Under the pieces are notes generated by a model. That model did not search any database and was not told where the DNA came from. It saw only the letters and a program-made list of their open reading frames with translations. Below are positions 116-59,790 of a stretch of 64,000 nt of DNA, piece after piece; positions within the stretch are counted from its first letter, which is position 1; the number at the start of each line of letters is the position of its first letter. The stretch is from the NCBI GenBank assembly GCA_024276655.1, contig JAJRWU010000039.1, positions 1 to 64,000 of the forward strand. The letters are read 5' to 3'. The DNA comes from Planctomycetota bacterium (GTDB lineage: Bacteria > Planctomycetota > Planctomycetia > Pirellulales > Pirellulaceae). Made by a program: the position numbers and the translations under genes.

Positions 116-354
116 AAAAAGGAGCCGGTTCCTGCACCCTAACAAAAATGCACTATAACCCCTAAGGAAACTTTCAGACAATATCAATCACGGGCAGTAT
201 ATCATGGAAATCGCGATATTTCCGTAATACCGCGTCGTGCATTGCTCAACCAAAATGACGAACGGTTTTCTGAATTACTTCGGCGCGTTATCGGACATAC
301 AGTATCGTGACCGCCAATTGCTAACATGCACGCGGTTGAAAATGTCGCTTTTTT

Positions 355-445
355 CGTTTAACGGCAAGCCGAAGGCGGCTGTGTTTTCTGGTCTGCCCGA
401 ACGCGTGGGCTCAAAACACAGCCGCCTTCGGCTTGCCGTTAAACG
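355..445. repeat. Perfect 33-bp inverted repeat with 25-nt spacer
   Basis: Bases 355-387 are the exact reverse complement of 413-445. The arm begins CGTTTAACGGCAAGCCGAAG. The 25-nt spacer (388-412) can extend the stem through GCCC/GGGC. Such a long perfect stem is larger than an ordinary terminator. The arm end CGGCTTGCCGTTAAACG recurs with one mismatch near 38535-38551, so it may be a dispersed element. Confidence 0.85.
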
Positions 446-577
446 AGCCATTGTTAGCCGCATGAAGTATAACATGCAACGCCGCGTTAACCGAACGCGA
501 CGAACCATGAAATGCACGGGAGATCACCATGACGCGTTTGCCAATGGAGCGTCTTGGAGGAAATCGTTCAGGGAACC

Positions 578-842: not shown

Positions 843-1832
843 ATGGGCGGAAACTTGAATCGAAGACATTTTCTCGCGGCCGCTTCGCTTACACCCGCCT
901 TGGCGCTGGGGACGCATCGCGTTTCTTGGGCGCAAGCGCCGGAGTTCAATCCTCGGGTGGTGATCCGCCGGTCTTTCCCGCCGATCAAATCGCCTCCAGT
1001 CGTCACGGCGGACAAGGCCGACAAAAAACTTCGGCCGACGGAGTTAGTGCTTGGCGTTGTGGTGAACGGCGCGGCGCGGGCGTATCCGATCAATATGCTG
1101 ACCGGTCCGCGTCGTGAAATCATCAACGATACGCTCGGCGGTTCGCACATTGCGGCTACGTGGTGACATCTCTGCCACAACGGCATCGTGTATGCCAGAG
1201 ACGTCCAGAACCGCGAATTGAACTTTGCCGTATCGGGCATGCTGTGGAACCGCAGCCTGGTGATGAAGGATATGGAAACGGAAAGTTTGTGGAGCCACTT
1301 GCTGGGCCTTTGCATGCGAGGGCCGCTGAAGGGCGCTGAACTCACGCTGCTGCCCTCGATGATTACCGATTGGAAAATATGGCTCAGCCGGCATCCTCAA
1401 ACCACGGTGTTGCACCTATCGCGGACTTCAACGAACTACCTCGCCGAGTTTTATAAAGACCCGTCGAGGTTCGTGGTGGCCATGGCGGAGGGCGGCGAAG
1501 CTCGCGCATGGTCGTTTGCCGATTTACAAAAACAACCGGTGGTCAACGACGCCTTCGCCGGCAAAAAAATTGTTGTCTTGTTTCAAAAATCATCCAGCAC
1601 GGCGTCGATTTTTGCACGTACTATTGGCGCGAGAACGCTTGTCTTCCAATGGGTTGATGGCAAACTGCAAGACGAACAAACGCATACGCTCTGGGATATC
1701 GCCAGCGGCGTCGCGATTTCCGGTGAGTTGAAGGGGCAGGCGCTGCAACCGGCGTTGGGAATCGTTTCGTATGCAAAGGCGTGGCGCGTGTTCCATCCCA
1801 ATTCCACCTATTGGAACGCGAACGGTTCGTAA
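843..1832 (+). CDS. DUF3179 family exported protein, candidate selenoprotein with in-frame UGA
   Basis: The N-terminus has a Tat-like signal (NRRHFLAAASLTPALALG). The frame stops at TGA 1164-1166 and continues in the same frame to TAA at 1832, giving 329 residues if the UGA is read. Both halves match DUF3179: RAYPINMLTGPRREIINDTL before the stop, and CHNGIVYAR, FAVSGMLWNRSLVM, GPLKGAELTLLPS and a second IVSYAKAWRVFHP block after it. Family members have a CxxC-type motif (TWCxLC) exactly here. This gene reads TW-UGA-HLC, so the stop sits on the first Cys and leaves U-x-x-C at codons 108-111. A hairpin at the right distance follows. The function of DUF3179 is unknown to me; a redox role is inference. 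The alternative is a nonsense mutation or read error (TGC to TGA). Confidence 0.8.
1167..1203 (+). promoter_or_regulatory. Candidate bacterial SECIS element after UGA 1164-1166
   Basis: Upper stem GGCAT (1182-1186) pairs with ATGCC (1192-1196) around the loop CGTGT (1187-1191). Lower stem TCTCT (1169-1173) pairs with AGAGA (1197-1201), which abuts the upper stem on the 3' side; an 8-nt bulge lies on the 5' side. The loop starts 20 nt after the UGA and has G at its second position, within the usual range for bacterial SECIS hairpins. The same spacing and loop start recur in the second UGA gene. Not folded by computation. Confidence 0.5.
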
Positions 1833-18884: not shown

Positions 18885-20198
18885 CTAAGCGTTGGGATCG
18901 TGGATCACGGTTTCCATGACCTTGGTATTGCGTTCAACCGCCAACACGGTAGTGCGTTGTTCAATGCCATCGGAACTAGCAGCCACAACGGGAATCACCT
19001 GCCGCTTGTTGGGCAAGGCGACACGCACCGTGAAGCTGCCGTCGGGCCGAACTTTTACCGGTTCGCCAGCCAGGGTAACGCGACCGCTAGGATTGGTGGT
19101 GCCGAAAATGATCATTTCGGCGTCGACTTCAAAACCGAATTTGCGGTCTCGATTGAGTACGCGCTCGGCGCCGACGCCAAAACGCGCGGCCATGGGCGTG
19201 CCCATCGGCCGGCGCAGCCGTTCTTCAAACACATCTTGGAGGTCGCCGCCTTCGCTTTCATGCCCGCCGCTTAACGCATAAATTCTCTCGTAATTGTCGG
19301 CCACGTCCAACCAGTTATGGTCGAGGGCGTGGCAGCTCCCCGGCGGGGGCGTGGTTACGGAGTTGCTTCGCGCCAAGGCTTGAAATTTCCCCGTCGTCGA
19401 CAAATAGCCAATATCGACTCGAAAACCCTGAGGCGGCGAAGGCACGTCAATGAACCAGTCGTTCACGCCGCCATGGATGTCGATATCGCGAATAATCTGC
19501 TCTGAGGCGCCGGTGGCGGTTGAGCGGTCGACCTCAACAACCCGCAATATCGGCCGCGCTGAGTGCCAGTGTTCCGCCATGGCCGCTTGCGCTCGCAAGA
19601 CGCCCTGCCGCGTGATTTCCCAACTGGCCTGAAGCCAGTACGAATCTCGGACCAGCAACACGATGCGGTCTTTTTGCGGATCGAGCTTGCCTTGGCCGGC
19701 TTTGCCGTTCTTGGCGCCGCCGTTCACGCCGGCAATGTCTCGCTGTTGTTCACGAGCTTCGTTCGCTCGGCGAATGCGTCCAGTCACTCTGGCCGACTTC
19801 ACCGTTTTGGTCGACTTGGCCTTGCCTTTGGCCACACTGCCTTTGGCCACACTGCCTTTGGCCATACTCTTACCATTTCTGCGGCGAGCGCCCGCAGGGG
19901 TGGTCGTCCTTCTTGCAACTGCGCCTTTTAGGGAAGAAGCAGCTGTTTTGGACGAACGCGTTTTCGACGCCTTCGCACCGCTCCTCGCCTTCGCACCGCT
20001 CCTCGGCTTTGAACCGTTCAGTTTTGAACTGCGCAGTTTTGAAGTCGCCGACGATTCGGCCTTCTTTTTCGCCAACCGAACCAATGCTCGAACGAGTTGG
20101 TCTTTTCGCATCGAATGCCAGCCGCGAATGCCGCGATCTTTCGCCATTCGGGCAAGATCCTTGCTCGTGTGCGATTTAAGGGAAGCTGCAGTAATCAA
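18885..20198 (-). CDS. DUF4912 domain protein with Rho_N-like N-terminus
   Basis: A TTG start at 20198 is preferred because GGAGGA precedes it; upstream codons give no recognisable protein. Residues 1-45 resemble the Rho N-terminal/SAP-like helical fold (SHTSKDLARMAKDRGIRGWH). A Lys/Ser/Ala-rich basic linker of about 110 residues follows, with a short SVAKG tandem repeat. The DUF4912 part starts at DRIVLLVRDSYWLQASWEIT and runs through NDWFIDVPSPPQGFRVDIGY to the C-terminus. The basic linker suggests nucleic-acid binding, but the role is unknown. It is 437 residues long and is followed by hairpin copy 2. Confidence 0.75.
   Translation of the reverse strand: MITAASLKSHTSKDLARMAKDRGIRGWHSMRKDQLVRALVRLAKKKAESSATSKLRSSKLNGSKPRSGAKARSGAKASKTRSSKTAASSLKGAVARRTTTPAGARRRNGKSMAKGSVAKGSVAKGKAKSTKTVKSARVTGRIRRANEAREQQRDIAGVNGGAKNGKAGQGKLDPQKDRIVLLVRDSYWLQASWEITRQGVLRAQAAMAEHWHSARPILRVVEVDRSTATGASEQIIRDIDIHGGVNDWFIDVPSPPQGFRVDIGYLSTTGKFQALARSNSVTTPPPGSCHALDHNWLDVADNYERIYALSGGHESEGGDLQDVFEERLRRPMGTPMAARFGVGAERVLNRDRKFGFEVDAEMIIFGTTNPSGRVTLAGEPVKVRPDGSFTVRVALPNKRQVIPVVAASSDGIEQRTTVLAVERNTKVMETVIHDPNA
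19824..19868. repeat. Three 15-bp tandem repeats inside the DUF4912 gene
   Basis: The unit GCCTTTGGCCACACT occurs at 19824-19838 and 19839-19853, and with one change at 19854-19868. Being 15 bp it keeps the frame and encodes SVAKG-type repeats in the basic linker. Confidence 0.8.
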
Positions 20199-52341: not shown

Positions 52342-55320
52342 TCAATCGTTTTGAAGAAACAAACGCTCATCGCCTTCAATGAGCAGATACGTTTCGCCGA
52401 CGCCGACGTCTTGCCATGCCGCAACACGGCCCGATGGCCAGCACACCTCCAAATGATCGATTTTTTCGGCGGCGCCGCAGCCCACAAGAATTTTGGGATC
52501 GTTGGCGGCGAAATACCCTCCGCACCGCGTGACCTGAAAGTGATGGGTTTGGTCGCCGATGCGCGCCCGAACCAGCGCGCCGATCGCATCTCGGTTCGCG
52601 GCGACGCCCGTCAGCCGTAGCACAATGCGGTTGCCGGCGGCCGATCGGTTCTCCAGCAACGACACATTGCCCGTCTGATAAGTGACGGCCACGTCGGTTT
52701 GTCGATCTCGGTTCCAGTCGACCAGCGCGACGCTTCGCCCCAATCTGGGTTGGCGAAAATCGTCGCCGGCGGTCTGCGACACTTCGCCAAAGCGGCCGTG
52801 TTTCAGGTTGTAAAACAGTTGCGCCCGCTGGGGAATTTCATGCAAAAGGCCGTTTGCCACGAAGAGGTCTAGACGGCCGTTGCAGTCGATATCCAAAAAC
52901 TGGCAGCCAAAACCGAGCCGGTTGCGGCTTGCATCGGCCAACCCGGATTTTTCGGTGGCATCGGCAAATAGGCCGCCGCCGAGATTTTCGTAGAGCGTGT
53001 TGGTTTCACCTTGGAAGTTGGTCACGAACAGATCCAGCAGGCCGTCGCCGTTGATGTCTCCGGTGGCGACGCCCATGCAAGCTTCCGACAACCCACGGCC
53101 GTTCACCGCCGCGCCGGCCGCGCCGGCGTTGTTTTGAAAGCGGACGGTCGACCCATCAACACGCTGGAAGAGAAAATTGGCGGTGGTGTCGTTGCCCACG
53201 AAGATGGAGTCGCGGCCATAGCCGTCAAAATCGCCGCTGTCGAAATTGACGAAGGCCACTCCCAGGCCCTTGCCATCGACGGCGGTCAGCCCATACTCCT
53301 TGGTTTTGTCGACGAAATGTCCTTGCCCGTCGTTTTCCCAGAGCGTGTCTTGCACGGCGGCGAATCCAAACGGGCGGCACGACGTATAAGCGCCGCGTAG
53401 TTTACAAGGCGTGAGGCTCTCGTAATCGGCGTCCAAATAATGCACGACGTACAGATCAAGATCGCCATCGCGGTCGATGTCGCTGAAGGCGGCGCTGGTG
53501 CTCCACTTGGAGCTAGAAACGCCCGCCGCCCGGCTCACGTTTTTGAACGTCCCGTCGCCTTGATTTTTGAACAGCAAACACGCGCCGTAATTGCAAACCA
53601 ACAAATCGGCGAAGCCGTCGTTGTCGTAGTCGCCGACGGCGCAGCCTTGGCCGTAGGCGCTGTCGGATAATCTGGCAGCCGCCGTGACGTCTTGCGCGGC
53701 TTCCCCGCCCACGTTTTTGAACAGCCGATCCTGGGCGGCGGCAGATTGGCGAACCGGCAGCGGCCCGCCTTGCGTAAAATAAAGATCATCCCAGCCATCG
53801 CGGTCGTAGTCCAACACCGCAACGCCGCCGCCAAGCGTTTCCATGAGCCAACGGTAGGGCGAACGCCCTGTATCGTATTGGAACGACAACCCAATTTCCT
53901 GAGCGATATCGACAAACCGCAACGCGCCAACACCGCCGTTGGCAGCGCTGTGCGTGGCGGCGTTTGCGTCTGGAAGCCGATGCTCTGCAATTGCGTTTGC
54001 TGGCGGACGCGTTTGAATACTTTTGAGAGGTATGAAATCGGCCGCGGCCGTTAGCAGCGGCTCTTTCGGCGAGGATTCTGGCGTGGCGATGCTTTGCCCT
54101 TGCGAGAGAATCTTGGCTTCTCGGCCGAACCCCAACTTCGCAAACGCCTCCCGCGCCCGGCGCATTGTCACGGCGACCGGCTCCACTGCCTGAACCGCCG
54201 GGTTGGAAGCCTCCATGAGGCGGCTCATGAATCGCATCAACTCTTTCTGCTGCTGCGATCGCTCGAACAGCGCGTTGGCCTGCTTGGCGTTTACGTCGGC
54301 GGCCAAAATTCGCGACGCCGCGTAACTTGCCGTGGGGTCGTAGGGATCGAGCGTGGCCGCGTTCTTCCAGGCAACCAGCGCTGCGGCGTTGTACCCTAAC
54401 TCCTGCCAGACGCGCGCGCGCACCAGCCAGGTTCGGCTCTCGCCATCGGCCGCGATTGGAAAATCGTTCAGCGTGGCGAGCGCACGATGGAAATCGCCTT
54501 GCTCGACTTCCCGTTCAGCGCGGGCCAGTTGAATCCTCCAAAATTCGGGGGCGTCGGGCGGCGCTCCGGTGATCAGTTTCCGGGCTTCGGCGTTGCGGCC
54601 GTCGTGGCCGTGGTTATGAATGAGCGCGGCGCGCACGATCGTGTTGGCGGGCTCTTCACGCAGACATTGCTCCAGCCACACGATATGTTCGTCGTCGTCC
54701 CATGAAGCGCGATGGGCCACGACGCGCATCGCCAGATCGATCGGCGAGAGCATGTTCTGTTTGTCCATCAGGGCGCTTTGTTCGTAGAGCTTTCGCTGCT
54801 CTAGGAGCACGAAATATTGACGCAGCAACAGCCGCCGCGGCCCAGGCAAGGTGGGAGCTAGGCGAATCGCCTCTTTTGCCAAAACTTCGGTCATTCGCGC
54901 ACGGCCTAGTTGCATGGCCATTTGCGAGGCGCGAAAGCGGGCTGTTGCGGCGGCGCCCTCCGCCGCCGATTCCGGCAAGCGGCGAAGCCATGTGATGGCT
55001 TCAGGGAAGTCGCGTTGGCGCTCCGCGATTTCGCCCAAGGCTTGAATCAGGCCGATGTGTGATTTATTTTCCGCATGGAGTTTGAGCAGTTCGCTCCGTG
55101 CGCCGGCTAGGTCGCCTTCATACACGAGCAGTTTGCAATCGGTGAAGCGTTCCTCAAAGCGGCTGTCGTCGGTAAAGAACACGAACAGCGCGCTGATGAC
55201 AGCCGCAACGGCGAGCAACGAAAAAAGGAAACCCAGTGTTCGCAACAGAGATGAAGCAGCACTATTTCCCATTCCATTGCACCCGCTAAAGATCTGCTCG
55301 AAATATTTATATCGTCGCAT
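52342..55320 (-). CDS. Membrane-anchored TPR plus FG-GAP/ASPIC-UnbV protein
   Basis: 992 residues from ATG 55320, overlapping the previous gene stop (TGATG). A membrane helix (LGFLFSLLAVAAVISALFVF) is followed by about 400 residues of TPR-type helices (LKLHAENKSHIGLIQALGEI, HRALATLNDFPIAADGESRT). The C-terminal half is an FG-GAP/VCBS propeller with calcium-type DxDxDG repeats (VAVLDYDRDGWDDLYFTQGG, FSDIDRDGDLDLYVV, GDINGDGLLDLFVTNFQGE), then an ASPIC/UnbV module at the end (IVLRLTGVAANRDAIGALVR, EVCWPSGRV). It is probably displayed outside the cytoplasm. It is the last gene of a four-gene operon. Confidence 0.85.
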   Translation of the reverse strand: MRRYKYFEQIFSGCNGMGNSAASSLLRTLGFLFSLLAVAAVISALFVFFTDDSRFEERFTDCKLLVYEGDLAGARSELLKLHAENKSHIGLIQALGEIAERQRDFPEAITWLRRLPESAAEGAAATARFRASQMAMQLGRARMTEVLAKEAIRLAPTLPGPRRLLLRQYFVLLEQRKLYEQSALMDKQNMLSPIDLAMRVVAHRASWDDDEHIVWLEQCLREEPANTIVRAALIHNHGHDGRNAEARKLITGAPPDAPEFWRIQLARAEREVEQGDFHRALATLNDFPIAADGESRTWLVRARVWQELGYNAAALVAWKNAATLDPYDPTASYAASRILAADVNAKQANALFERSQQQKELMRFMSRLMEASNPAVQAVEPVAVTMRRAREAFAKLGFGREAKILSQGQSIATPESSPKEPLLTAAADFIPLKSIQTRPPANAIAEHRLPDANAATHSAANGGVGALRFVDIAQEIGLSFQYDTGRSPYRWLMETLGGGVAVLDYDRDGWDDLYFTQGGPLPVRQSAAAQDRLFKNVGGEAAQDVTAAARLSDSAYGQGCAVGDYDNDGFADLLVCNYGACLLFKNQGDGTFKNVSRAAGVSSSKWSTSAAFSDIDRDGDLDLYVVHYLDADYESLTPCKLRGAYTSCRPFGFAAVQDTLWENDGQGHFVDKTKEYGLTAVDGKGLGVAFVNFDSGDFDGYGRDSIFVGNDTTANFLFQRVDGSTVRFQNNAGAAGAAVNGRGLSEACMGVATGDINGDGLLDLFVTNFQGETNTLYENLGGGLFADATEKSGLADASRNRLGFGCQFLDIDCNGRLDLFVANGLLHEIPQRAQLFYNLKHGRFGEVSQTAGDDFRQPRLGRSVALVDWNRDRQTDVAVTYQTGNVSLLENRSAAGNRIVLRLTGVAANRDAIGALVRARIGDQTHHFQVTRCGGYFAANDPKILVGCGAAEKIDHLEVCWPSGRVAAWQDVGVGETYLLIEGDERLFLQND

Positions 55321-56399
55321 CAGGCGGCGAGATCGGCCGCGATAATCTTCCGGTTGCTGTCGCCGGGTTTCATTTTCCAAATGTAGCCGTCCACGATAAA
55401 GTGATGCAGGTTCACCACCGCGATCACGAGCAAAACGCTCTCCGCCGGACCGAACCCCAACCAGATATAAGCCTGCGGCCAACAGTTAAACAAGCCGTAC
55501 CCCAGCAACAGGCTGGCAGCGTAAAACCAAACCACGTGGTACAGCGCGCCGCGGCGGTTTTGGGGCCGCGCCCGCTGCTCCTTGACGTGGAAAATCGTGG
55601 CGATGCACAGGTACTGAATTCCGTGGAAGACCGTCGCCCAAACGAAACCATCGTAGTGCGTGAACACAATGAACCAAATTCCGTTCGCCACCACAACCAA
55701 CAGGCTGATCAGCGGCATCGGACCCGAAGCACTCCGCCAAACACTGAAATAGAGCAACGGCGGCAGTAGAATCGCGGCGACGCCCAGCACAGCAGCCAAA
55801 ATCTGCACCGGCAACGACCACGGCGCGACGGCAATCGCGGTTGCGTTGGGCATGAACCACCAGAAGAAATGTTTGTCGGACGACAGCAGCAGCAAACGTA
55901 CAAACGGAATGATGGCGATCCACCACAGCAGGTTCTTGTGCGCGGGGCTAAGTTGGCAGCCCGAGCGATAGCTGTACATCACCGCTAGGCCGTAGGCTTG
56001 GGCCGCGTAATGAAAGGGCGCCCAACTCAAGTAAATCGCCTGCAAGATGGGGCCTGTTTGGTCGGCCAGCACCAAGCTTGCCGTGAGCACCGCGATACTC
56101 AACAGCGGAAACGCCATCGTCAAAAACGGCAACGCCTCCCGGGCCCCCGGCTTGGTGTACAAGCGGACGGTTGAGGCCGCGAAGTGGGCGCTGTTGCTCA
56201 ATAGAATGAACCACGGCAACAGGCCGAACGAGATCATCGATTGCCCGCCGGAAAAACCGTAGCGCAGCGGAATCACGATCAACGATAAACCGCCGCCGAT
56301 CAACAAGTAGTCGAACACGGGATGCAAGAACGTGCGGCCGAGCAACCGCTCTGATCGCCATCCTGTAATTGCTTCTCTTTCCACGCTTGCTTCCGCCAT
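55320..56399 (-). CDS. Polytopic membrane protein, function unknown
   Basis: 359 residues with about nine membrane helices (FDYLLIGGGLSLIVIPLRYG, LLPWFILLSNSAHFAASTVR, PLLSIAVLTASLVLADQTGP and others). Recurrent His residues at helix edges (NSAHFAAS, WAPFHYAAQAYGLAVMYSY, VFHGIQYLCIATIFHVKEQR, VNLHHFIVDGYIWKMKPGD) look like possible metal or heme ligands. The gene overlaps the next one by one base and follows the small TPR gene by 17 bp, so it belongs to the ASPIC operon. No enzyme family is recognised with confidence. Confidence 0.7.
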   Translation of the reverse strand: MAEASVEREAITGWRSERLLGRTFLHPVFDYLLIGGGLSLIVIPLRYGFSGGQSMISFGLLPWFILLSNSAHFAASTVRLYTKPGAREALPFLTMAFPLLSIAVLTASLVLADQTGPILQAIYLSWAPFHYAAQAYGLAVMYSYRSGCQLSPAHKNLLWWIAIIPFVRLLLLSSDKHFFWWFMPNATAIAVAPWSLPVQILAAVLGVAAILLPPLLYFSVWRSASGPMPLISLLVVVANGIWFIVFTHYDGFVWATVFHGIQYLCIATIFHVKEQRARPQNRRGALYHVVWFYAASLLLGYGLFNCWPQAYIWLGFGPAESVLLVIAVVNLHHFIVDGYIWKMKPGDSNRKIIAADLAA

Positions 56400-56416: not shown

Positions 56417-57088
56417 TTAAAATCCCCGCAGGGGAAACTCCAACGCACGCCGCGCCGCCGCCGAAGTTGGATCTAGTTCCAGCGATTTTCGATATGCGGC
56501 CGCAGCCTCGCGTTTTCGATTGAGTCCTAACAGCGCCGCGCCAAGATTACCATGCGCCAGCGAGGAGTTGGGGTCTAAATGGACGGCGAATTCACCTTGC
56601 GCCAAGGCCTCCACCAGACGGTTCTGCTGCAAAAGCTCGGTCACCAACTCATTTCGAATCTGGGCGTTCTCGGGCTGCAAACGCACCATGGCCACCAGCG
56701 CCGACACAATAGCGGCGTGGTCTCCGGCTTGGCGCGCACTGGCTAGCAGTTTCGCCACCGCCGAGGCGTTGTCGAAGTCGATGATGGCCGCGGTTCGGAT
56801 CTCGGGCAGCGTCGCGACCTCGCCCCGCCGCTGGATCAGTGCGTTCAAATCGCTGACATATTCCACGCCGACGCGAGGCAACGCCCGAAACGCCGCGAAT
56901 GATCGGAACAAGCCAACGGCCATGAACAACAGAAAACTAGCGGCCCCAATGGCCAATAACGTCCGACCGCCCGGCAAGGGACGGGGTTTTGCGGGCGGCT
57001 GGATTTTGGCCTCCGGCGGAGGGGACGACTCGCCTTGCGCCTTTCGGGATTTCCCCTGCGGCTTTCGCGATTTTGAACGGCGCGACAT
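56417..57088 (-). CDS. Membrane-anchored TPR protein
   Basis: 223 residues from ATG 57088 with GAGGAAGAGGA upstream. A basic Arg/Lys/Pro-rich N-terminus precedes one membrane helix (TLLAIGAASFLLFMAVGLF). The C-terminal 120 residues have TPR consensus: NSSLAHGNLGAALLGLNRKR and EAAAAYRKSLELDPTSAAAR. It is second in the operon, 14 bp after the candidate selenoprotein gene, and may be a scaffold for the FG-GAP proteins. Confidence 0.75.
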   Translation of the reverse strand: MSRRSKSRKPQGKSRKAQGESSPPPEAKIQPPAKPRPLPGGRTLLAIGAASFLLFMAVGLFRSFAAFRALPRVGVEYVSDLNALIQRRGEVATLPEIRTAAIIDFDNASAVAKLLASARQAGDHAAIVSALVAMVRLQPENAQIRNELVTELLQQNRLVEALAQGEFAVHLDPNSSLAHGNLGAALLGLNRKREAAAAYRKSLELDPTSAAARRALEFPLRGF

Positions 57089-57102: not shown

Positions 57103-59580
57103 TCAGTGCGCCGCGCCGTGTTCGCCCGGCGTGACACGCTCGAACCGGCCTGTTTTTTCGTCGACGATGATGTGGCCATCGGCCGGAATGTGTTGCAACA
57201 CATGCACGGCGCCGTTGGGCCAACGCACCTCCAACGTGTCTATTTGCGGGCTATCGCCGAGGCCGAAGTGAACAAAACTCGCCGACTGCGAATGAAACGT
57301 GTTTGCCGGAAACAGTTCCCTCACGATGTTGCGTTCGGCCACCGTGGCGGTGATCCTGGCGCCAATTCCCAAGCGGTTACTAACACTTCCCCGCAACGAG
57401 ACCTTCAAATAGCGTCGTTTAGGAAAATGATTCTCGAACAACAACAGCGACCCGCCGCCGGCTTGTCGGACCAAGAGATCCATCTGGCCGTTATTGCGAA
57501 AGTCGGCCGCGACCACCGAACGGCCGTCGCCATCGGAGTCGGCGCCGGTCAGGTAGCTGATATCCGAAAATTGGCGGGCGCCAAGATTGAGGTAGGTCCG
57601 ATTCCGTTCAAACCCGCTCAGATTATGTTTGAAGGCAATCTCCCAGGGGTCGGTTTCCCAAAACTCACCGAGTTTGGAGTCGAGCGTTTTGGGCGCCGCG
57701 ACAGTCGCTCCACGGTCGAAAGGCTGTGACACGACAGCCATCCAGAAGCAATTTCAGCCATCGGGTTTGCGGCGATCATGGCTCATGAAGCCGCATGTGG
57801 AGTGGATATCGAGCAAGCCATCGTTGTTGAGGTCGACCAACACCGGGCCCCAACTCCAGCCCACGTTGGCGATGCCCGCCGCGTCGGCGATCGATTGGAA
57901 GTGAAAGCCGCCTTCGTTCAAATGCAATTCGCTTCCGGCCACCATCCGCCGCAGTTTGCGGAGCGTTTCGGTTTCATAAGAATCCGAGGGAAGGTTATCC
58001 ATCACTCGATTGCCGGCCTTGGAATACATGTTCGAGACGTACATGTCGATTTGGCCGTCGTTGTCGATATCGCCCAGGGCGAGCCCCATGGAGCCGAAAT
58101 CGGCGGAGGCGTCACCCAAGAGGCGTTCGGTGAAGCTCCCGTTTTTCTGGTTCACCAACAGTGCGCCGGCGCCGAATTCGTGAATCACGTACAGGTCGGG
58201 CCAGGCGTCGTTGTTGGCGTCGAGCCAACCGGCGGTGAAGGCGGAACGCCGCCCGCCATCGGCGCCGGCTGTTTGCGTGACATCTTCAAACCGGCCGTTC
58301 CCCAGGTTGCGCAAGAGCTGATTCCCGCGAATGTTGCCGCTCTTTCCGTCGACCCACGATCCTTTCTTGTGTTCGCGCGTGTCGGCCCGCGTGATGTAGA
58401 TGTCGATCAGGCCATCTCGGTCGAAGTCAGCGACGCTGGCGCCGCTGACTCCGTCCATCCCCGCTTCCAGAACGAGTTGCGGCAGGTTGCTGTCTTTGCG
58501 GAGTTGGAAGATCTTGCCTTGCCGATTCAGAAACACGCCCCAACCGATAAAGAACAGGTCTTCCCAGCCATCGTTGTTGATGTCGACAAAAACAGCTTGC
58601 GTGACTCCCGGCAGGTCGGGCAAGCCGATGCGGTAGGTGACGTCTTCAAAACGTCCTGCGGGCAAGCAGCGATAGAACCGAGGGTTGTGCGCGGTGCGTT
58701 CCGCCATGACGAGCACATCGGTGTAGCCGTCGCGGTCGAAGTCACACAAGTACACGCCGCCCGAGGTGATCAGACGCTCCTCTTTTTTGGCCTGCCAGTT
58801 ATCGAAGAGGTCGTCGGTTTTGAAGCCGCGCTGCTCGGAAACTTCTCGCATCAGCGGCTGCGGCGAGCGGCGAACGTCTATCTGGCTGACCACGCATTTC
58901 TCCAGCCAGCCGCCAGCTTGCAGGATTTCCTCGGTCGGCGATAGCGTGCGAAAACTGAGTTGAACCAAAACCTCTAGCATCTGGCCAGCGCTCCCCTGGC
59001 CAGCATTTCCCGTCCCCTGGATTCTCAAGCGGCAGCGCCCTTCCCAACCGCCTTCGAGGTTGTTTCGATCGAGTGGGGCGAGATGCAGCAGTTCGAATTT
59101 TATTGAAGGCGCGCCACGGGAAATATTTTGAGGCAGTTCCAATAGCCAGAGCGCGAATTCGTCTTGATTGAGCAACTGCGGCGTCTCCACGCCGATGACG
59201 CGCGAAGCGGTAATAGAATCTTTTTCCCAGCGAATTTCAGCCGCCTCCGAGGGAACCGAGGCCTGGAAATCAGGCGAACAAAATCTCGCCACTGCTGCGG
59301 GCTCGCCGGCCAGCAAAGCTTTGGAAAGCGCGGAGAAACCTATTTGGCCCAAACGATTTCCATAGTGCTCGCATTCCCAAAGAAACGCACGCTCGGCAGC
59401 CGGCAAGATGGAATCGTCCGACGCGTCGGCGGCCGCGGCGTCAGAGGAATTATTGGCAGCGGAAGAAACCGCGCTGTTGGCGTCGTTTGAGTTGGCGTCA
59501 TCGGTGTTGCCGTGGCAGCCCGCCACCAGAGCAGCGACCGCAAAGCATAAGGCGACCGGAATGAGAACCAGACAACGCAC
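57103..59580 (-). CDS. FG-GAP/ASPIC-UnbV lipoprotein, candidate selenoprotein with in-frame UGA
   Basis: A GTG at 59580, with GGAGG upstream, starts a lipoprotein signal (CFAVAALVAGC, lipobox LVAGC). An FG-GAP propeller follows (YLCDFDRDGYTDVLVMAE, VFVDINNDGWEDLFFIGWGV, ASVADFDRDGLIDIYITRAD, LDANNDAWPDLYVIHEFGAG). The frame stops at TGA (57754-57756) right after GFMSHDRRKPDG and resumes in the same frame with NCFWMAVVSQPFDRG. It then runs through VVAADFRNNGQMDLLVRQAG to an ASPIC/UnbV end (LEVRWPNGAVHVLQHIPADG). Neither half is complete alone. UGA followed by Asn-Cys gives U-x-C at codons 609-611, a redox-like pair. A hairpin in the same geometry as the DUF3179 gene follows. The alternative is a TGC to TGA mutation or read error. 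Confidence 0.75.
57722..57756 (-). promoter_or_regulatory. Candidate bacterial SECIS element after UGA 57754-57756
   Basis: On the minus strand GGCTGT (57739-57734) pairs perfectly with ACAGCC (57727-57722) around the loop CGTGTC (57733-57728). The loop begins 20 nt after the UGA, as in the DUF3179 gene, and also starts CGTGT with G at position 2. Beyond a U-U mismatch, a weak lower stem (TGGA against TTCG, with two wobbles) can extend it. Not folded by computation. Confidence 0.48.
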
Positions 59581-59790
59581 CGAACCAGCGCCTCCAGAAG
59601 TGTCCTGGCCGCAACTTCGCTTTCGACAACCGGAATTGGATTGTTGTGTCGAAATCCCGGGAAAAAGCCGCACGTTTCGTAGTGCGACACACAACTCACG
59701 GTTCGATTGTACTCGCCGAACGACTCATGTTCAATCGACACGCCCGCCCGTGCGGCCCTGGCGAAATCGCCGCGATTTTTGCCGAATTCG

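Follow-up and report, generated by a model that had tools for sequence, protein, structure and literature searches.

Two unrelated genes of a planctomycete, one encoding a DUF3179 protein (gene A) and the other an FG-GAP/UnbV_ASPIC propeller (gene B), each contain an in-frame UGA codon followed by a short hairpin. We consider both hairpins to be bacterial SECIS elements through which SelB would recognize the two UGAs as selenocysteine (Sec) codons, with a probability of about 0.96. It is also very probable that gene B represents a large, unlisted family of exported FG-GAP/UnbV selenoproteins in Planctomycetota. This family would comprise two branches (Sec-x-Cys, and Sec with a fused CxxC thioredoxin-like domain), reach about 23 type II SECIS sites in single genomes, and have loops that obey an N1-GU-(N)-N2 rule common to unrelated genes and fdhF. 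The DNA analysed is a 64-kb stretch, hereafter the window, of a Planctomycetota bacterium of the Pirellulaceae (GCA_024276655.1, contig JAJRWU010000039.1, positions 1-64,000, forward strand). Its relevant features are as follows.

843-1832, plus strand: gene A, predicted DUF3179 selenoprotein, 329 aa with the UGA read as Sec
1164-1166, plus strand: predicted Sec-UGA of gene A, aligned with the Cys of TWCxLC/TYCPLC homologues
1182-1196 (+16 to +30), plus strand: putative SECIS apical hairpin of gene A, GGCAU-CGUGU-AUGCC, loop 1187-1191
57103-59694, minus strand: gene B, predicted FG-GAP_3/UnbV_ASPIC (CRTAC1-like) propeller selenoprotein (PF13517, PF07593)
57754-57756, minus strand: predicted Sec-UGA of gene B, motif KPDG-U-NCFW
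57722-57739 (+15 to +32), minus strand: putative SECIS apical hairpin of gene B, GGCUGU-CGUGUC-ACAGCC, loop 57733-57728

Gene A forms a single open frame if its TGA is read as U. It contains the DUF3179 domain (PF11376, E=1e-62), a Tat-like N-terminus (NRRHFLAA) and the motif ATW-U-HLC, in which UHLC aligns with the CxLC of homologues, in agreement with the UxxC/T criterion of DUF3179 selenoproteins. DUF3179 (PF11376, UxxC/T) is an already listed selenoprotein family (PMC9312934, PMC13188914), and gene A shares its domain and UxxC motif with no essential difference. It is a DUF3179 selenoprotein of the U-x-x-C kind, with predicted export and Sec insertion. The host genome holds three UGA-bearing DUF3179 copies (contigs C282, C69 and C265). 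The copy on C265 (L136, UGA-motif LVSF-U-AVC near position 463 of the locus and near 19706 of G000:C265) has the hairpin GGCGUC-GGUCU-GACGCC, whose loop GGUC is fdhF-like. About 400 bases upstream of gene A, at window positions 354-446, there is a 34-nt perfect inverted repeat with a 25-nt spacer.

Gene B is likewise a single open frame if one internal UGA is read through, and it encodes FG-GAP_3 repeats (PF13517, E=6.8e-36) and a UnbV_ASPIC domain (PF07593, E=8.8e-18). The likely start is a GTG near 59580, which would yield the lipobox LVAGC; gene B and its relatives have a lipoprotein-like or membrane-anchored appearance. The propeller repeats and UnbV_ASPIC domain are like those of CRTAC1-like proteins, from which gene B differs by a Sec in the stretch between the FG-GAP repeats, before UnbV. 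A conserved in-frame UGA, alignment with Cys, a downstream SECIS and Sec machinery in the host were all found for gene B, which is, by prediction of its anchoring, export and Sec insertion, a lipid-anchored FG-GAP/UnbV propeller selenoprotein of the U-x-C kind. Neither the gene A nor the gene B protein had a match in the PDB by sequence. Downstream of gene B, on the minus strand, a non-Sec TPR/FG-GAP/UnbV_ASPIC protein occupies 52342-55482, and a small TPR protein (56417-57088) clusters with it.

Gene A reads UGA (1164-1166), catctctgccacaac and then GGCAU CGUGU AUGCC, and gene B, on the minus strand, reads UGA (57756-57754), aattgcttctggat and then GGCUGU CGUGUC ACAGCC. The loop starts at +21 (i.e., 20 nt past the UGA) in both genes and has G as its second base, and both stems are perfect, with 5 bp around a 5-nt loop in gene A and 6 bp around a 6-nt loop in gene B. 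The first-pass annotation had described this shared geometry (a GGC-starting perfect stem of 5-6 bp with CGUGU 20 nt past the UGA and G at loop position 2) in two genes that it regarded as unrelated; its coordinates are exact. Its further suggestion of selection for SelB recognition gains support from homologues, covariation, Sec machinery, Cys counterparts and genome-wide specificity, but the shared CGUGU pentamer is not itself the conserved signal.

RNA folding favors the hairpin of gene B with or without the 11 nt nearest the UGA, at -7.8 to -11.7 kcal/mol (the bSECIS threshold being an MFE <= -7.5), whereas that of gene A is the optimum only when these 11 nt are left out. For the naked 40-mer of gene A the helix probability is about 0.01; when the UGA-proximal 11 nt are omitted, as under the ribosome, the hairpin becomes dominant (0.86-0.99). 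This hairpin is weak: its energy is -4.2 kcal/mol alone, -5.7 from +12 onward and -7.5 with an outer helix, so that the length of sequence folded decides whether it lies above the published cut-off or at it. A competing fold of the gene A stretch reaches -10.4 kcal/mol. No part of the window matched an Rfam family at gathering level, and four SECIS loci searched at E<=10 returned no SECIS-related family.

How often such a structure arises by chance was assessed in 698,841 bases of the host genome, consisting of the window and 40 other stretches that were partly chosen for known matches. All frames together contain 17,710 UGAs. CGUGU stands at +21 after 8 of them, and a Watson-Crick stem of at least 5 bp with a 5- or 6-nt loop stands there after 65; the two coincide after 4, against 0.03 expected from the separate frequencies. 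All four are predicted Sec-UGAs, namely those of the two window genes and of their paralogues on C69 (DUF3179) and C11 (propeller), and the same combination follows none of about 165,000 sites of nine other triplets. A covariance model of the DUF3179 and type I propeller SECIS returned the same four sites from the 6-Mb genome at 43-46 bits, with the next at 19.5 bits; the four belonged to its training set, and the scan is a test of specificity. A generic N-GU-N hairpin, which was also scanned for, is not discriminating: it follows 47 of the 17,710 UGAs (about 0.3%) and is similarly frequent after other triplets. A hairpin alone, which chance supplies at that rate, therefore proves nothing.

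The alternative that survives best is coding coincidence, in which the IVY and VVS peptides and common Val codons give rise to both CGUGU and GGC...GCC, so that the UGAs may still encode Sec while the likeness of the loops is meaningless. The first-pass annotation had itself cautioned against this, and rightly so for the pentamer: when peptide and codon usage are held fixed, 27% of synonymous versions of gene A and 10% of those of gene B carry CGUGU, and two Cys homologues (L042 and L120) have CGUGU at +21 without a stem. The pentamer by itself is therefore weak evidence. The stem is not, because stem and CGUGU together occur in just 3.3% (gene A) and 0.04% (gene B) of synonymous versions, which refutes coincidence for the stem. 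Coincidence also fits poorly with third positions that are frozen across dozens of genes and with covariation of loop bases 1 and 4 in DUF3179 and in type I. We consider it improbable as an account of the two hairpins, and the SECIS reading is preferred.

Comparison of homologues shows the hairpins to be under selection. Between about +15 and +32 there is almost no variation at third codon positions, and on either side of this stretch they change freely. Compensatory changes, which the first-pass annotation had proposed to look for in homologues, are present: across 22 distinct DUF3179 SECIS, 99.2% of cells are paired and five of six pairs show two-sided changes (0/500 shuffles as high). The paired fraction is 97.1% in type II SECIS and 93.8% in DUF3179 and type I pooled, part of the covariation in the latter being due to the pooling of two families. 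A stem of at least 5 bp at +21 is present in 29/31 DUF3179 and 41/41 type I genes versus 0/13 Cys/Ala homologues.

The conserved loop is best described as N1-G-U-(N)-N2 with N1 and N2 complementary, and CGUGU as the conserved signal proved too narrow a description. The first and fourth loop bases, each the third base of a codon, are C-G in 28 and A-U in 2 DUF3179 genes, and C-G in 39 and A-U in 1 type I genes. CGUG is the usual solution at register +21 in these two groups, and AGUU, GGUC and others occur. The type II hairpin lies three bases closer to the UGA, with the loop GGUC at register +18; type II has CGUGU at the original place as well, but there it spans the boundary between the loop and the 3' arm of this different hairpin. 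The +18/+21 pair of type II (n=67) is G-C in 50, A-U in 9 and C-G in 3, and no other pair of the region covaries more strongly. All 88 distinct type II loops contain GU, and N1 complements base 4 in 82 of them; if base 5 is allowed as well, every one of the 88 fits (66 on average after shuffling, 0/20,000 shuffles as high). Exceptions to the rule are L090 (type I, G033:C49), which is a long branch in the tree, and L134 (DUF3179, G033:C99).

A second alternative holds that translation truly ends at the UGAs or that they arose by sequencing error, leaving truncated, overlapping or broken genes, with gene A perhaps restarting at GTG 1188. Plain table-11 ORF calling does split both genes at the UGA, but the alignments refute this reading, which is barely credible. 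Over 130 genes, drawn from dozens of genomes, share the UGA, most of the other homologues having Cys there, and protein-like substitution and homology persist downstream; between the host (G000) and its sister genome (G001), differences beyond both UGAs are concentrated at third positions, the pattern of coding sequence. UGA occupies one invariant column in 30/30 DUF3179, 41/41 type I and 67/67 type II genes, counts that express breadth, the three sets having been gathered by motif; one false motif match (L004) was removed. The preceding homology searches had found UGA in nearly all close matches. Homologues without UGA have Cys in its place (TWC/TYCPLC in DUF3179, DYC[ST]xxW in propellers), and the Cys-bearing propellers form one clade beside type II in the tree. 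Most homologues come from fragmented assemblies.

Equally implausible is genome-wide reassignment of UGA, or a suppressor tRNA acting without a SECIS. It would likewise open the frames across the UGA and found no specific support, and against it gene B ends at a TGA (57105-57103, minus strand) and the internal UGA is confined to a single Cys column, where a hairpin accompanies it, and tracks SelB. The roughly 6-Mb host genome encodes tRNA-Sec (66 bits, above cut-off), SelB (340 bits) and SelD (271 bits). Among named genomes its nearest relative is the MAG Planctomycetaceae bacterium SZUA-33, and this sister MAG was the sole match when genome contigs were scanned with P0002. SelB and UGA genes occur together in 43 of 117 relatives, UGA genes alone in 3, SelB alone in 22 and neither in 49 (Fisher p=4e-12, with relatedness ignored). 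Two of the three UGA-only genomes are 72-82% complete MAGs; the third (G003), rated 99% complete, has a UGA propeller gene (L063, G003:C30) and no SelB above the cut-off. A genome of the same genus (G069) has SelB. Sec looks as though it was lost alongside SelB in another relative (G017), because this genome is without SelB, has Cys at the UGA column of DUF3179 and Ala at that of a propeller gene that the tree places inside type I, and no hairpin was found downstream in either gene.

The propeller genes fall into two types by motif, PDG-U-x-C-x-W for type I, which matches gene B, and D[LM]-U-S-x-x-W-R for type II. The Cys of U-x-C is present in 41/41 type I genes, where it is part of the collecting motif, and was also seen in unfiltered matches; type II lacks it. 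Type II has instead a CxxC about 250-295 residues past the Sec in all 29 sequences with enough downstream sequence, 21 of which fit a W..CxxC pattern and 8 of which are variants recognized by eye (e.g., FSxxCxxC). A long type II example carries AhpC-TSA/thioredoxin and TPR domains C-terminal to UnbV. L070, L072, L074, L075 and L244-L273 are type II proteins with a thioredoxin-like CxxC domain in a single chain of 1200-1400 aa. Type II SECIS matches number up to 23 per genome (G005, G063), not all of these matches being confirmed as genes. As an independent test, a model of the type II SECIS built on an order-level set (R2) was run on 392 genomes across the phylum and matched 51, from many families. 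Each of the 30 loci that were inspected sits at a UGA in frame within the same protein motif, and N1 is complementary to base 4 in 29 of them. The Sec form of FG-GAP/UnbV is absent from the 119-family table of 2026 (PMC13188914) and covered by no NCBIfam model, and no such selenoprotein appeared in the deep-Sep main text or in full-text literature searches, supplements and most subscription journals lying outside that search.

The published bSECIS consensus (PMC13188914, Fig. 2) specifies a 3-9 nt loop, a 4-16 bp stem and a spacing of 16-37 nt, with a G among the first two loop bases, mostly G/U after it, and with the N1:N2 pair included, and G23 and U24 of the apical loop have been named as key in E. 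coli (PMC8659212). The loop rule is therefore a refinement of the known SECIS model. Genes A and B fall within the consensus in loop size, upper-stem length, G position (CGU) and 20-nt spacing; what differs is that N1/N2 complementarity appears here as third-position covariation within families and that N2 may be loop base 4 or 5. The E. coli fdhF loop G-GU-C, at +19 to +22 (NC_000913), obeys the N1-GU-N2 rule and matches the type II loop GGUCG at +18, whereas in DUF3179 and type I genes the loop is about 2 nt more distant from the UGA than in fdhF. E. coli fdnG/fdoG (AGUCU) conform to the rule only if base 5 is taken as N2. In addition, fdhF-type SECIS needs a bulged U17, whereas the stems of genes A and B are perfect and without a bulge.

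SelB binding, actual Sec insertion, export and redox chemistry are what we infer from these sequences. A ribosome at the UGA would leave the hairpin exposed 14-15 nt downstream, the loop G-U, held by the complementary N1 and N2, would be bound by the C-terminal domain of SelB, and SelB would bring Sec-tRNA(Sec), the UGA then being decoded as selenocysteine. Genes A and B would have converged on one loop and spacing because a single SelB is common to both, with codon choice adding part of the likeness. Type I would pair Sec with its neighboring Cys, and in type II the fused CxxC thioredoxin-like domain could reduce Sec. An economical reading is that the family consists of envelope thiol/selenol redox proteins whose partner thiol lies beside the Sec (type I) or in the fused domain (type II).

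Because plain ORF calling breaks each of these genes at its UGA, many planctomycete genomes probably carry faulty annotations of a large protein family. A Sec-bearing beta-propeller with up to 23 copies per genome is unusual; for comparison, the largest bacterial selenoprotein gene set, all families together, was cited as at least 39 in a 2016 survey (PMC5029168). The many natural SECIS with free third positions provide a direct covariation view of what SelB would read, and this view could sharpen SECIS prediction.
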